Source of the DNA: Erysipelothrix tonsillarum DSM 14972
Lineage (GTDB): Bacteria; Bacillota_I; Bacilli_A; Erysipelotrichales; Erysipelotrichaceae
Assembly (NCBI RefSeq): GCF_000373785.1
Contig: NZ_KB892380.1
Span: 176,860-240,859 of the forward strand
Direction: 5' to 3'
DNA length: 64,000 bases
The translations under genes and the position numbers were made by a program. The notes under the pieces were generated by a model. That model made no database searches, was not told where the DNA came from, and was given only the letters and a program-made list of their open reading frames with translations. Shown here piece after piece: positions 49,364 to 61,766 of this stretch. How positions within the stretch are numbered: position 1 is the first letter of the stretch; every line of letters begins with the position of its first letter.

Positions 49364-50168
49364 ATAAAGCTCCATATAGACGCAAATAATCGTCAAAGGT
49401 TAAATAGTCAGCACGAATGTTTGTTTCAAGTCCTAAGGACTCTAAAACACTCGCGTAATCAACTTCTTTATCAATCGTCTTTAAATTGTTCACTAATGTC
49501 TTACGTCTGAATTGAAAACATTTCTTTACAAATTCAAAAAATGTTTTCTCATCATAAGGCATGGTTTGATGTTTAGGTGTAAGTTTGATAACAATACTTT
49601 CCACACCTGGGCGTGGATGAAAAGACTCTTTTGAAACCTTTAAAACAGTCTTCACATCAAAATAGTATTGCATTTGTATTGAGAGAGAGCTGTAATCTTT
49701 CGTTTGTGGATGAGCACCCAAACGATCTGCAATCTCTTTTTGTACCATAATCGTCATCGCCACAATGTCGAGTTCCATGAGTCTAAACAGAATTGGTGTC
49801 GTGATGTAATAAGGTAAATTCGCACAGACCGTAATTGGTTCGGTATACATACTTAAGTCTGCTTTTAAAAAGTCTTGATGGATAACATTAACATTGTCAT
49901 ATTCTTCAAGCGTTTCTTGTAAAATCTCAACCATATGGGGATCAATCTCATAGGCGATAACTTTATCGTATGTTTCAGCGAGTTGTTGCGTCAATGCTCC
50001 CAATCCAGGACCAATTTCTAATACCGTCCCTCCTGCACCACTTTGTGTTGCGATATTGCGAACGACAGACGGATCAATAATAAAATTTTGTCCGAAATGT
50101 TTCTTTGCACGTCGTTCATAACGACGTAATAATTCCATACTTACGGAATAGTTAGCGATTGTCTTCAT
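49356..50168 (-). CDS. rsmA: 16S rRNA dimethyladenosine transferase
   Basis: A 270-residue KsgA/RsmA methylase that dimethylates two adjacent adenosines near the 3' end of 16S rRNA. KHFGQNFIID, the SAM-binding VLEIGPGLGALTQQL and the catalytic NLPYYITTPI are present. The ATG at 50168 overlaps the rnmV end by 17 bases. Middle gene of rnmV-rsmA-ispE, a conserved Firmicutes order. Confidence 0.96.
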   Translation of the reverse strand: MKTIANYSVSMELLRRYERRAKKHFGQNFIIDPSVVRNIATQSGAGGTVLEIGPGLGALTQQLAETYDKVIAYEIDPHMVEILQETLEEYDNVNVIHQDFLKADLSMYTEPITVCANLPYYITTPILFRLMELDIVAMTIMVQKEIADRLGAHPQTKDYSSLSIQMQYYFDVKTVLKVSKESFHPRPGVESIVIKLTPKHQTMPYDEKTFFEFVKKCFQFRRKTLVNNLKTIDKEVDYASVLESLGLETNIRADYLTFDDYLRLYGALYA

Positions 50169-50709
50169 AATTACTCTCTTTCAAAACCATTAGGCAGTCT
50201 GCTTTTGTAATATTAAGCATATTCAAATATTTCAGGCATGATTTCGCATTTGACTTAGGAAAACGGAACGCCTCCGACAACAAATCACGACGCATTGCAC
50301 TATCCTTCGCGCCACTGAGCCCTAAAGTTTGGAAATCACTGAGCGTTAAAGATTGATTATTCAAAACAAAAGTGGAACAAGCATTCAATGCATCGATAAT
50401 ATCGGCTTTATCTGCATGTTCAATCCCTACTTTTTGTTTTTTCTTTGTTTGCAGGATATGGAGTGATGCATGCTTGCATGAGCCCACTTCCTCAATAATT
50501 CGACGTCGGATCATCTCACCCGGTCCATCGGGATCCGTGAAAACAATGATTCCACGTTCCTCATTCATCTTTTTACATAATGCCAAGAAATCAGATGACA
50601 TGTGTGTACCATTGGACATAATAACATCGGCTTCAACACATTTTAGGATTTTTTCCTTGTCATGCTTTCCTTCTACAACAATTACTTCTTGTATCTTTAG
50701 TTTGTTCAT
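50152..50709 (-). CDS. rnmV: Ribonuclease M5
   Basis: A 185-residue Toprim nuclease that matures 5S rRNA. The Toprim glutamate is in EVIVVEGKHDKE (8-19) and the Asp pair in IVFTDPDGPGE. The RRRII segment and a C-terminal RNA-binding part (LSGAKDSAMRRDLL) follow. No ribosome site precedes the ATG, and a TATAAT ends six bases before it, so the mRNA is probably leaderless. The protein start matches the family N-terminus. Confidence 0.94.
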   Translation of the reverse strand: MNKLKIQEVIVVEGKHDKEKILKCVEADVIMSNGTHMSSDFLALCKKMNEERGIIVFTDPDGPGEMIRRRIIEEVGSCKHASLHILQTKKKQKVGIEHADKADIIDALNACSTFVLNNQSLTLSDFQTLGLSGAKDSAMRRDLLSEAFRFPKSNAKSCLKYLNMLNITKADCLMVLKESNYEDNR

Positions 50710-50715
50710 GGGTCA

Positions 50716-50724
50716 ATTATATCA
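50716..50724 (-). promoter_or_regulatory. Extended -10 promoter of rnmV, leaderless geometry
   Basis: TGATATAAT on the minus strand (50724-50716) is a consensus extended -10. The gap 50715-50710 is six bases and the ATG begins at 50709, where transcription should start. No good -35 at 17 bases, only a T-run from the upstream terminator. Confidence 0.7.
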
Positions 50725-50743
50725 TGTTTTAAAAACAAAAAAA

Positions 50744-50759
50744 ACCGAGTAAACTCGGT
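50744..50759 (-). terminator. Terminator of the 3D-domain lipoprotein gene
   Basis: Arms ACCGAG (50744-50749) and CTCGGT (50754-50759), then eight T residues on the minus strand, immediately before the rnmV promoter. Confidence 0.85.
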
Positions 50760-50805
50760 CTTTGTCGATAGGACCTTTGGCTACTTAAGATCCCGATCAT
50801 TGGCT

Positions 50806-58026: not shown

Positions 58027-58810
58027 ATCCTTGAAATAATGTTTGGTAGTTTTTATGAATTTGTGTTTTTACTTCATTCGGTGTTAAATCTTTAAGCTCA
58101 CCAATCTTTTCTCCCGTATAACAAACAAAGGCAGGTTCATTCCGTTTCCCTCTTTTAGGTACAGGTGCTAAGTAAGGTGAATCAGTTTCTGTCAAAATTC
58201 GGTCAATCGGCGCAATCTCCAATACATCACGAACATTTTGCCCGTTTTTAAACGTTAAAATTCCACCAACCCCTATGTAAAATCCTAAATCAAATACTCG
58301 GCAAGCATTTTCTACCGTATCGCTATAGCAATGTACAATCCCCTTTGCTTCAACGGGGTGTTGTGTAAGAATATCAAGTACATCTGCCATCGCATTTTGC
58401 TCGCCATTTCGAACATGAATCGCAATTGGCTTTTTATGTTCATTGGCAAACTTAATTTGACGTATAAACATTTCTTTTTGTGCTTCCTTATTTGAATCAT
58501 CCCAATAGTAATCCAACCCAATTTCGCCAATACATACAACTTGAGGATGTTCAAGGTACGCCATCATGCGCTCAAGATCACCATCCTTAGAATCCTTTAC
58601 ATCACAAGGATGGATACCAACCGCGAGATCAAACATTTCTGGTTCATCTTTTGTTTTTTCTAATGCTAATTCAATTTCGTTTATTGACCCGCAAATAATA
58701 CAAATCTTATCAATCCCTTGTTCCTTTGCATTCAATACAAGTTCATCAAAAGATTCTACAAGTCCTTCCGATGCAATGTGTGCATGGGAATCAATCCAAC
58801 CATATGCCAT
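58025..58810 (-). CDS. tatD: TatD family metal-dependent hydrolase
   Basis: A 261-residue amidohydrolase-fold nuclease. Metal ligands appear in DSHAHIASE, GEIGLDYYW, AIHVRNGEQ, IVHCYSDT and LTETDSPYLAP. TatD/YcfH members are 3'-5' DNA exonucleases or D-Tyr-tRNA deacylase-like. It is a full-length family member. GAGGAG precedes the ATG. It lies downstream of mnmE past a terminator, so expression may partly depend on read-through. Confidence 0.93.
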   Translation of the reverse strand: MAYGWIDSHAHIASEGLVESFDELVLNAKEQGIDKICIICGSINEIELALEKTKDEPEMFDLAVGIHPCDVKDSKDGDLERMMAYLEHPQVVCIGEIGLDYYWDDSNKEAQKEMFIRQIKFANEHKKPIAIHVRNGEQNAMADVLDILTQHPVEAKGIVHCYSDTVENACRVFDLGFYIGVGGILTFKNGQNVRDVLEIAPIDRILTETDSPYLAPVPKRGKRNEPAFVCYTGEKIGELKDLTPNEVKTQIHKNYQTLFQG

Positions 58811-58838
58811 ATTTTTAACTCCTCATTCTAAGATAATA

Positions 58839-58858
58839 AAGGCTCCCTTAGGAGCCTT
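58839..58858 (-). terminator. Terminator of mnmE
   Basis: Perfect arms AAGGCTCC (58839-58846) and GGAGCCTT (58851-58858). The T-run on the minus strand is broken, so read-through into tatD is possible. Confidence 0.7.
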
Positions 58859-58861
58859 GGT

Positions 58862-60196
58862 TTATTTACCGAGACAGAAACGCGCGAAAATTTCATCCAA
58901 CACATTAATATCTTTCTTTGGTTTAACGACTGATGCGAGTTCTATATAAGACTCATTTAAATCAATCGTGACTAAATCAAGTTCCATTCCAAATTCTAAC
59001 GCTTCAATAGCTCGTTGCATTGCCAAATAACTCTTTTGGACCTGAGCAATATGACGCTCATTTGAGAGCGTTGGCTTGGTAAGTGCTTTTGTATGCTCGA
59101 CATATCGTTTATTTATCTCATCCACTAGTTCATGAACATCACCGTTTAAGGCACTGACATATAGCGCATCTTCATGACGCTCAACAAGATCTTCTTTGTT
59201 ATAAACAACGATTCGTTCTTTATCCTTGGTCGCTTCTAATAAATCAAGGTCCTCTTGATCGCGTGGGGCAGAAGCATCGAATACCACAATGACCAACTCA
59301 GCGGTCTCCAACGCTTTACGACTTTTTTCAATACCAATTTGTTCAATACGATCACCGGTATCTCGCAATCCAGCAGTATCAACGAGATGCAATGCTACAT
59401 TCTCTAAGCGTATCCAACCTTCAACCAAGTCTCGAGTTGTTCCTGCGATCTCCGTAACAATTGCCTTATCTTCTTCAAGTAATACATTAAGAATGCTTGA
59501 CTTACCCACATTCGGTTTTCCAAGAATAACGGTTTTAACGCCTTCTTTCATAATTCGACCACTCTGCGATTCTTTAAGGATTTTACCTAAATCTTCCAGG
59601 AATCGTTTTGCTTCCGGAAGAATGATTGATTCCGTCAAGACCTCGACATCATCATACTCCGGATAATCAATATTAACCTCAATATTTGCGATAATTTGGA
59701 TCAAACGCTCCAAGAAGGGTTCAATTAATTTACGTACATTCCCTTGAACACCTGAAATCGCAAGTTCTTGTGCAAATTCATTAGGAGCCTGTATGAGTTC
59801 CATGACAGATTCCGCTTGTGACAAGTCAATACGTCCATTTAAAAAGGCACGTTGCGTATATTCGCCCGGTTCTGCCATGCGCGCACCCACAGAAAGACAC
59901 AATGCGAGTATTTTTTTGGTTACCAAAACACCACCGTGACAGCTGATTTCAACCACATCTTCACGCGTATAAGTTCGAGGCGCTCTAAAAACGCTGACAA
60001 GAACCTCATCAACAACTTGTTGGTTCACGGGATCAATAATATGACCATAATGAACGGTGTGGGAATCAACATTTTCAAGATTACGCGAGAAAATCTTATT
60101 GACGGTGTCAATGGCATCGACACCGCTAATTCTTAAAACATTGATGGCACTTTCCTGAAGTGCCGTTATAATTGCTACTATTGTATCTGTTATCAT
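58862..60196 (-). CDS. mnmE: tRNA modification GTPase MnmE
   Basis: A 444-residue GTPase that with MnmG makes the cmnm5 modification of wobble uridine. The N-terminal folate-binding domain begins ITDTIVAIITAL, with HYGHIIDP after it. The G domain has GKPNVGKSS, DTAGLRDTGD and YNKED, and the C-terminal CLGK carries the conserved cysteine. The ATG at 60196 is preferred because the promoter predicts transcription to start exactly there; the ATG at 60202 would lie upstream of +1. No ribosome site is present. Confidence 0.95.
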   Translation of the reverse strand: MITDTIVAIITALQESAINVLRISGVDAIDTVNKIFSRNLENVDSHTVHYGHIIDPVNQQVVDEVLVSVFRAPRTYTREDVVEISCHGGVLVTKKILALCLSVGARMAEPGEYTQRAFLNGRIDLSQAESVMELIQAPNEFAQELAISGVQGNVRKLIEPFLERLIQIIANIEVNIDYPEYDDVEVLTESIILPEAKRFLEDLGKILKESQSGRIMKEGVKTVILGKPNVGKSSILNVLLEEDKAIVTEIAGTTRDLVEGWIRLENVALHLVDTAGLRDTGDRIEQIGIEKSRKALETAELVIVVFDASAPRDQEDLDLLEATKDKERIVVYNKEDLVERHEDALYVSALNGDVHELVDEINKRYVEHTKALTKPTLSNERHIAQVQKSYLAMQRAIEALEFGMELDLVTIDLNESYIELASVVKPKKDINVLDEIFARFCLGK

Positions 60197-60202
60197 ACGC
60201 AT

Positions 60203-60231
60203 ATTATAGGTAAAAAAAAGAGAATGCGCAA
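60203..60231 (-). promoter_or_regulatory. mnmE promoter fused to upstream terminator, leaderless geometry
   Basis: -35 TTGCGC (60231-60226), a 17-base spacer and -10 TATAAT (60208-60203). The gap ATGCGT is followed by ATG at 60196. The -35 lies in the loop of the Sir2 gene terminator and the T-run forms the spacer. Confidence 0.75.
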
Positions 60232-60243
60232 TGAATTCTCTTT
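60217..60243 (-). terminator. Terminator of the Sir2-like gene
   Basis: Arms AAAGAGAAT (60217-60225) and ATTCTCTTT (60235-60243) with long A and T runs. Its loop and tail overlap the mnmE promoter. Confidence 0.8.
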
Positions 60244-60244
60244 T

Positions 60245-60796
60245 TTAATCTTCTTTAAGTGACTTAAGGGTCTCACGAACCTGTTTTTCAGCATTATCTT
60301 GAATTTCAATAATTTCAGCGCCATTTGCGTGCGCAATCTCACGAAGGTCAGTTGCGACAGCAGTAAATCGAGATGCCCCAACCACGAGTAGGATATCTCC
60401 TTCGCCCAGTGAATCAACTTTTTGGTATGCTCGTTGATAATTTGGGGCAGGATCACCATACAAGACCGGCTTATTAAAAAGTTGATCAGCATAAGCTAAT
60501 TCATCTTCATCGGGCATGCGACCATGTAGTGCTATGGGTACACTTCCCGCCTTTTCATGCAACCCGTCAATGTTCATTGTTATAACCGGGATATCGTATT
60601 CCGCTAAAGCTCGATGTGCATCGTTTGGTTCTGCATTTTTAATCACTTTGAAGAGTGAAGCAATCGTTTCACGATACAATTCGGGATGGTGTGTCGCAAA
60701 ACTACGATGCAAACGATCACGTATCTCGGGTTGCTCCATAAATGTATTAATTCCCGAAGCCTTACTAATTCCAGCTCCTGTAAATGCCAATATCAT
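60245..60796 (-). CDS. Minimal Sir2-like NAD-dependent deacylase homologue
   Basis: A 183-residue protein with the Sir2 core: LAFTGAGISKASGI (3-16), TMNIDGLHEKAGSV (NID of the NAD site), HG as the catalytic histidine in IALHGR, and VLYGDPAPN corresponding to the usual VVLFGE segment. It lacks all four zinc-ribbon cysteines and is shorter than typical sirtuins (about 230-250). Whether it deacylates or only binds NAD is unknown. The ATG at 60796 has AAGGAG 7 bases upstream. Confidence 0.85.
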   Translation of the reverse strand: MILAFTGAGISKASGINTFMEQPEIRDRLHRSFATHHPELYRETIASLFKVIKNAEPNDAHRALAEYDIPVITMNIDGLHEKAGSVPIALHGRMPDEDELAYADQLFNKPVLYGDPAPNYQRAYQKVDSLGEGDILLVVGASRFTAVATDLREIAHANGAEIIEIQDNAEKQVRETLKSLKED

Positions 60797-60821
60797 CCAA
60801 CCACTCCTTTTGTCTATTGTA

Positions 60822-61766
60822 TCATGAGATGGATTCAATGAGTGAATCAATATCGCTAATTAAACGATCCTTAAAGGCTTCGATATTGGCATCCAGAGCG
60901 ACCCAAACATTAGGCATTTTATTTTTATTGTATGCTTCAAGATCAAGTACAGTTCGTCCTTTTTGTGTTGAATCGTTAAGAACGTCTAAGTTGACACATA
61001 CTCCTTCAACCACTGTATCGTCTAAAGCAACCACCGCAGCAAGGGGATCATGAAGTGCACACCCGCCCCACGATGGATATGATTTTTTATAAGCCTTAAA
61101 ATAATAATCTACAATTTGGTATAGTTTTGGGGCTTTTTCTTCCCAGTGTTTTAAATCCTGTTTGGTGAAAATGGCTCGATTTGTGACATCAAGACCAATC
61201 ATAGTTATGGGTACCGAACTTCGTAAAACGATCTTACTGCTTAGATCGTCTTGTGCAATATTAGCTTCCGCAAAAACACTGACATTTCCTGGAACGCCGA
61301 AGGCTCCCCCCATAAGAACTAACTTCCCAATTGATTCCATAACTTGTGGATTACGTTCAATTGCCTTGGCTACATTGGTCAACGGCCCCGAAGCAATGAT
61401 TACAAGATCTTTGCCGTATTTCTTGGCAGATTCCAGCAAAAAATCTACTGCATGTTTCTGTTCCTTTTGAATTGGTGATGTAGAAAGTTCTACATTACCA
61501 AGTCCATTTTGACCATGAAACAGAATGCCTCCCGCTAAATGTTCATACTTTTCATCACGGCGCGCATGGGTACAGCCTTGATATACAGGTACATCATGAC
61601 GCTTAAAATAATTTAAGAGATTTAATGTATTTTGAGTTGCACTCGCAACATCGATATTACCATAAACCGTTGTAATCCCTAGCAAATTAATGTTTGTTTG
61701 TGCACACATGTATGCGATTGAGATTGTATCGTCTATACCTGTATCCACATCTAAAATATATTTCAT
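60822..61766 (-). CDS. Inosine-uridine-preferring nucleoside hydrolase
   Basis: A 314-residue calcium-dependent nucleoside N-ribohydrolase that releases free base and ribose. The calcium-binding motif DVDTGIDD is at 6-13 (the family often has DTDPGxDD), with IIASGPLTNVAKA and the active-site HDPLAAVVALDD. GAGGGGG precedes the ATG. It lies 25 bases upstream of the Sir2-like gene on the same strand and is probably cotranscribed with it, linking nucleoside and NAD chemistry only by position. Confidence 0.93.
   Translation of the reverse strand: MKYILDVDTGIDDTISIAYMCAQTNINLLGITTVYGNIDVASATQNTLNLLNYFKRHDVPVYQGCTHARRDEKYEHLAGGILFHGQNGLGNVELSTSPIQKEQKHAVDFLLESAKKYGKDLVIIASGPLTNVAKAIERNPQVMESIGKLVLMGGAFGVPGNVSVFAEANIAQDDLSSKIVLRSSVPITMIGLDVTNRAIFTKQDLKHWEEKAPKLYQIVDYYFKAYKKSYPSWGGCALHDPLAAVVALDDTVVEGVCVNLDVLNDSTQKGRTVLDLEAYNKNKMPNVWVALDANIEAFKDRLISDIDSLIESIS

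Follow-up and report, generated by a model that had tools for sequence, protein, structure and literature searches.

The gene mnmE of Erysipelothrix tonsillarum very probably carries a SigA-type promoter—TTGCGC, a 17-base spacer, and TATAAT—from which transcription would start on the A of its own start codon at 60196 and yield a leaderless mRNA. The upstream half of this promoter lies on the same DNA as a terminator-like hairpin of the preceding sirtuin gene. Comparison with related genomes suggests that this overlap is a matter of compaction and that the leaderless promoter is the conserved functional part, common to a small and stable set of leaderless genes in Erysipelothrix.

Anatomy of the predicted mnmE promoter and start codon

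The window—a 64-kb stretch of contig 4 from a genome of 1.93 Mb (G000)—was compared with 12 further Erysipelothrix genomes. The gene for MnmE, the tRNA uridine-5-carboxymethylaminomethyl synthesis GTPase, occupies positions 58862 to 60196 of the minus strand (444 amino acids from the inferred start), and its product matches NCBIfam TIGR00450 over the full length with 417 bits against an equivalog cut-off of 252.6. It is preceded on the same strand by a gene for a Sir2-like, NAD-dependent deacylase-related protein of 201 amino acids (60245–60850), whose NCBIfam Sir2-family matches all stay under the curated cut-offs; a nucleoside hydrolase gene, identified by NCBIfam profile search, lies before this one. 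From the sirtuin stop codon TAA (60247–60245) to mnmE there are only 48 bp, and because the gap is this short, promoter and terminator share DNA. Read along the minus strand, these bases are AAAA, GAGAAT, TCATTGCGC, ATTCTC, TTTTTTTT, ACC, TATAAT, and ATGCGT, followed by the ATG at 60196.

Within this gap, the −35 element TTGCGC (60226–60231, minus strand, as are all elements here) comprises the last six of nine hairpin-loop bases. The 17-nt spacer (60209–60225), defined by the sequence and its comparison, consists of the hairpin 3′ arm, eight T, and ACC, and is followed by the −10 element TATAAT (60203–60208), the bases ATGCGT (60197–60202), and the start codon ATG (60196–60194). The two hexamers agree with the SigA/sigma-70 consensus at 9 of 12 positions and fall within the 16 to 18 nt distance of this promoter type. 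The −35 element is the weak part with a consensus agreement of 3/6, and a strict promoter scan does not flag the site. The housekeeping SigA-type RNA polymerase would bind here and initiate on the A at 60196—the transcription start that we infer from the 6-nt spacing between −10 element and ATG—and a ribosome would then bind the 5′-terminal AUG of the message directly.

A Shine–Dalgarno (SD) sequence is missing: reading of the sequence finds no SD-like string within 20 nt upstream of 60196, and a match of at least four bases to AAAGGAGGTGA is absent from the SD window, as it is from that of the mnmE orthologs in genomes G003 and G010. The 5′ end of the predicted RNA is open, with the first 40 nt—starting on AUG—folding at −0.9 kcal/mol and a fully open centroid. 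The original prediction had named this order of hexamers, spacers, and ATG and the lack of an SD; the former is borne out to the base, and the latter holds as well.

A second in-frame ATG at 60202 adjoins the −10 element, and because of it the longest open reading frame (446 amino acids, MRMITD...) carries two residues, MR, which a message from 60196 could not encode. Other Erysipelothrix MnmE proteins have the N-terminus MITDT, in agreement with a start at 60196. Judged by these sequences, mnmE likely starts at 60196, and its longest open frame begins two codons too early at 60202. The same trap is seen in the G010 ortholog of a cation diffusion facilitator (CDF) transporter, which reads TATAAT ATG AGA ATG. 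It is likely that automatic annotation picks the wrong start in leaderless genes with an ATG abutting the −10 element.

Three other features near the mnmE start were considered. On the minus strand, the early coding sequence contains a 7-bp hairpin, GGCACTT-CAGGA-AAGTGCC (GGCACTTCAGGAAAGTGCC), at 60146–60164; the core of this hairpin persists across the compared Erysipelothrix species, and locus L013 shows one compensatory pair, but shuffled sequences reach equal pairing counts. The raised synonymous conservation over mnmE codons 1 to 12 (0.79 vs 0.46 gene-wide) was rejected as a leaderless signature, since SD-led genes rise alike (0.77 vs 0.58). Likewise, an antisense promoter at 60144–60172 of the plus strand (10/12) was rejected: the region holds 17 promoter matches, and its shuffles hold 17.2.

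Conservation of the probable leaderless arrangement

In 10 of the 13 Erysipelothrix genomes, TATAAT stands 6 bases (7 in L008) before an mnmE ATG lacking an SD, which in the remaining leaderless loci was judged by eye. At nine of these ten promoters, TTGNNN is found at the exact spacing of 17 nt; at the tenth (L012), a TGA extension precedes TATAAT in its place. Outside both hexamers, the identity of the mnmE upstream regions between the Erysipelothrix groups compared is only 15 to 50%. In a side observation, mnmE of genome G006 (L007) shows a one-base frameshift at a short T-run about 60 bases past the ATG, reflecting either a sequencing error or a broken gene.

The three other species (L014, L015, and L016) have an SD at mnmE, and thus leaderlessness of this gene is, by comparison of these loci, not essential. 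Most of the family outside Erysipelothrix has an SD-led mnmE as well. A −10-like hexamer 6 nt before an SD-less mnmE ATG was found in eight other family genera (L018, L192, L246, L265, L268, L270, L271, and L274), and two Streptococcus mnmE loci (L071 and L078) show the same look, with a −10-like box before an SD-less start.

These loci bear on the idea that mnmE is expressed mainly by read-through of the nucleoside hydrolase–sirtuin operon, with SD-less translation and a TATAAT that is minor or inactive. In favor of it, the terminator may leak—its stem has only two G–C pairs and it abuts the stop codon—and the mnmE of L014 comes immediately after the sirtuin gene. However, L014 has an SD and lacks the promoter, whereas the ten leaderless loci show the reverse, and an idle promoter would not keep a strict 6-nt distance between −10 element and ATG across such diverged sequences, making this explanation quite unlikely. 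As a point against the leaderless message from 60196 that we favor, a leadered, SD-less mnmE message could also arise from transcription running on out of the sirtuin operon.

An AT-rich genome might also be suspected of placing TATAAT six bases before an ATG by chance. Indeed, TATAAT-N6-ATG as a bare pattern is not rare in the window (three found vs 1.7 expected), and 200 TATAAT–ATG pairs at spacings 5 to 8 were counted genome-wide and unrestricted, against 154 in a reversed control. The picture changes when gene starts are considered. For this, ORFs without any start bearing an SD of at least five bases were selected from samples of G000 (two contigs), G010, and G003—1.55 Mb in total, 347 to 400 kb each, with 1398 genes—and TATAAT was tabulated before all of their early ATGs. 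At exactly 6 nt from the ATG, 15 TATAAT were found, whereas the other fifteen spacings (0–15) together hold 11, that is, 15 compared with an average of 0.73 at each remaining position (Poisson 4e-15, four genome samples). SD-led genes carry TATAAT mostly 16 to 35 bases before the start, as ordinary leaders predict. With the signal among SD-less starts confined to spacing 6 and retained before orthologous genes across divergent species, coincidence appears very improbable; gene-start context, SD absence, and conservation lift the mnmE pattern above chance.

The exact-match leaderless set comprises about 1% of the genes in these samples, a fraction which—like all genome-wide fractions here—is an estimate from simple ORF-based gene calls. 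Five such genes with TATAAT-6-ATG are found on contig 4 of G000: mnmE, the RNase M5 gene rnmV, and the genes for a YigZ/IMPACT protein, the CDF transporter, and a YitT-like protein. For each of the five, G003, G010, or both contain a leaderless ortholog, with protein identities of 49 to 83%, and every ortholog found in these two genomes keeps TATAAT-6-ATG; the G003 match to the YitT-like protein (27% identical) is a paralog and was left out of this count. For rnmV (50151–50709, minus strand; NCBIfam TIGR00334), the 6-nt rule points to a leaderless start in G000, G003, and G010 alike. By this comparison, a small, stable leaderless gene set is probably common to Erysipelothrix, and the predicted leaderless start of mnmE at 60196 gains support from both the ten species and the 6-nt spike.

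Overlap with the putative sirtuin terminator

The terminator-like hairpin spans 60212 to 60246 of the minus strand and follows, by sequence and fold, the order A6, GAGAAT, TCATTGCGC, ATTCTC, T8. Its stem is formed by GAGAAT (60240–60235) and ATTCTC (60225–60220), enclosing the loop TCATTGCGC (60234–60226), and is lengthened by A6/T6 pairing into the T8 run at 60219–60212. The RNA folds into a 12-bp stem at −10.1 kcal/mol (z −2.6). It has a nine-base loop and, with only two G–C pairs, is not flagged by a strict terminator scan. The 5′ arm begins within the sirtuin stop codon, TTGCGC sits in the loop, and T8 falls inside the 17-base promoter spacer. As anatomy, the claim that the −35 element lies in the loop of the preceding terminator and the T-run in the promoter spacer is thereby correct; it is backed by four related genomes and by the conservation of the hairpin, which may act as a working intrinsic terminator.

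G000, G002, G006, and G009 share the fused sequence without a single difference, although the four-fold degenerate positions within mnmE agree at only about 42% when G000 is compared with G009 or G002. We do not take this 100% identity across four species as special proof, given that 46-nt upstream regions of G000 and G002 have a median identity of 0.89 and are perfect in 8 of 99 cases. A more telling control is given by terminators between convergent genes, which serve no promoter: between G000 and G002, these have a mean identity of 0.72 with none of 21 perfect, whereas the mnmE hairpin is identical at 33 of 33 positions, loop included. Therefore, by this comparison, the DNA of the hairpin very likely serves a further purpose as well, for which promoter function is the simplest candidate.

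It was further suggested that such a fusion could couple termination of the sirtuin gene to mnmE initiation. On DNA that serves both processes, each would then affect the other: RNA polymerase might, for instance, pause on the T-run and either occlude the promoter or be handed over to it, and ribosomes that reach the sirtuin stop codon would tune this by suppressing hairpin folding. The perfect hairpin conservation and the position of the 5′ arm would fit this. In E. coli, a terminator located 5 bp past a translated stop codon dropped from about 90% to below 10% efficiency (PMC4824070). With this precedent, and because the arm starts in the stop codon, read-through across the mnmE promoter is plausible; by analogy, if there is coupling, this is how it would most realistically arise. 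A second fused hairpin is fully conserved as well: on contig 4 of G000, outside the window, the terminator hairpin GGTGTCTTGACACC holds a perfect −35 element TTGACA, its T-run serves as spacer, and TACAAT follows 17 nt on, the hairpin being 100% identical in G002. As a side observation on this locus, its message is SD-led with the repeats GGTGTC/GACACC. Service as promoter DNA, however, explains the hairpin conservation equally well.

What speaks against coupling is the fused order itself, which was checked in relatives and is confined to the four closest genomes. In six other leaderless Erysipelothrix species, the promoter is kept and its neighboring terminator differs or is lacking altogether, being absent, displaced (L011), or only abutting the −35 element (L013), with L012 visible solely in its near part, as the contig ends 64 bases upstream of mnmE. 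Because these six lack the fused order, it is, as far as the compared sequences tell, a lineage-specific compaction of one species group and no conserved coupling device. Coupling is thus unsupported as a conserved design and, as a property of this element, rather unlikely. An enrichment of −10 boxes soon after terminators, with 34 of 188 before co-directional genes vs 7 of 113 for convergent ones (p 0.003), was rejected as proof of coupling—it shows that closeness is common, nothing more.

Further terminator–promoter neighbors are found in the window. Upstream of rnmV, the terminator hairpin CCGAGTTTACTCGG and its T-run enter an extended −10 promoter, TGA TATAAT (50716–50766, minus strand; whole stretch 50707–50766, TGATATAAT), and this hairpin is 0.97 identical to that of G002. 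Behind mnmE's own terminator (AAGGCTCCTAAGGGAGCCTT, 58800–58860, minus strand), TATTAT follows directly and then the SD-led tatD; this is a possible further overlap, and the TATTAT is not seen in G002. One might go further and propose a bifunctional switch, in which ribosomes terminating at the sirtuin stop decide between termination and run-through and thereby set mnmE initiation, with the rnmV and TTGACA fusions as members of an Erysipelothrix class; we regard this as unlikely.

Relation to known leaderless systems

For the preferred reading—a leaderless promoter compacted onto a terminator—literature searches returned no relevant paper on leaderless mRNA or on the mapping of transcription starts in Erysipelothrix, no earlier description of a conserved leaderless set in this lineage, and, by phrase, nothing on natural bacterial terminator–promoter fusions. 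The analysis points to a small, stable, and probably leaderless gene set in a lineage for which no transcription-start map was found. It likely corrects the MnmE start codon, and likewise that of comparable genes with an ATG abutting the −10 element, and it offers a clean natural test case of whether terminator and promoter can share bases without loss of either.

The hairpin resembles intrinsic (Rho-independent) terminators near stop codons in that hairpin and T8 directly follow the stop, with an expected sensitivity to the terminating ribosome (PMC4824070). It differs by its weak, AT-rich stem and by a loop and T-run that double as −35 element and spacer.

Leaderless genes as such are nothing new and have been described thoroughly in streptococci and mycoplasmas. 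In the searched text of Zheng et al. 2011 (PMC3160421), TA-signal leaderless genes are marked, as here, by a TATAAT-like box whose distance to the start codon downstream is short and fixed, and those of Firmicutes are concentrated in Lactobacillales and Mycoplasma, with no mention of Erysipelotrichia in that text. The closest likeness is found in S. pyogenes, S. agalactiae, and S. pneumoniae—also low-GC Gram-positive bacteria with a SigA-type promoter, a start on the A of AUG, and no SD. Streptococcal leaderless genes are conserved between species, with 54 common to two and 39 to three (PMC6431027); in S. pneumoniae, 9% of operons are leaderless and leaderless AUG mRNAs are efficiently translated (PMC6212727). 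Unlike the Erysipelothrix 5′ ends, which are deduced here from sequence, those of streptococci were mapped experimentally, and the Erysipelothrix exact-match set is the smaller one.
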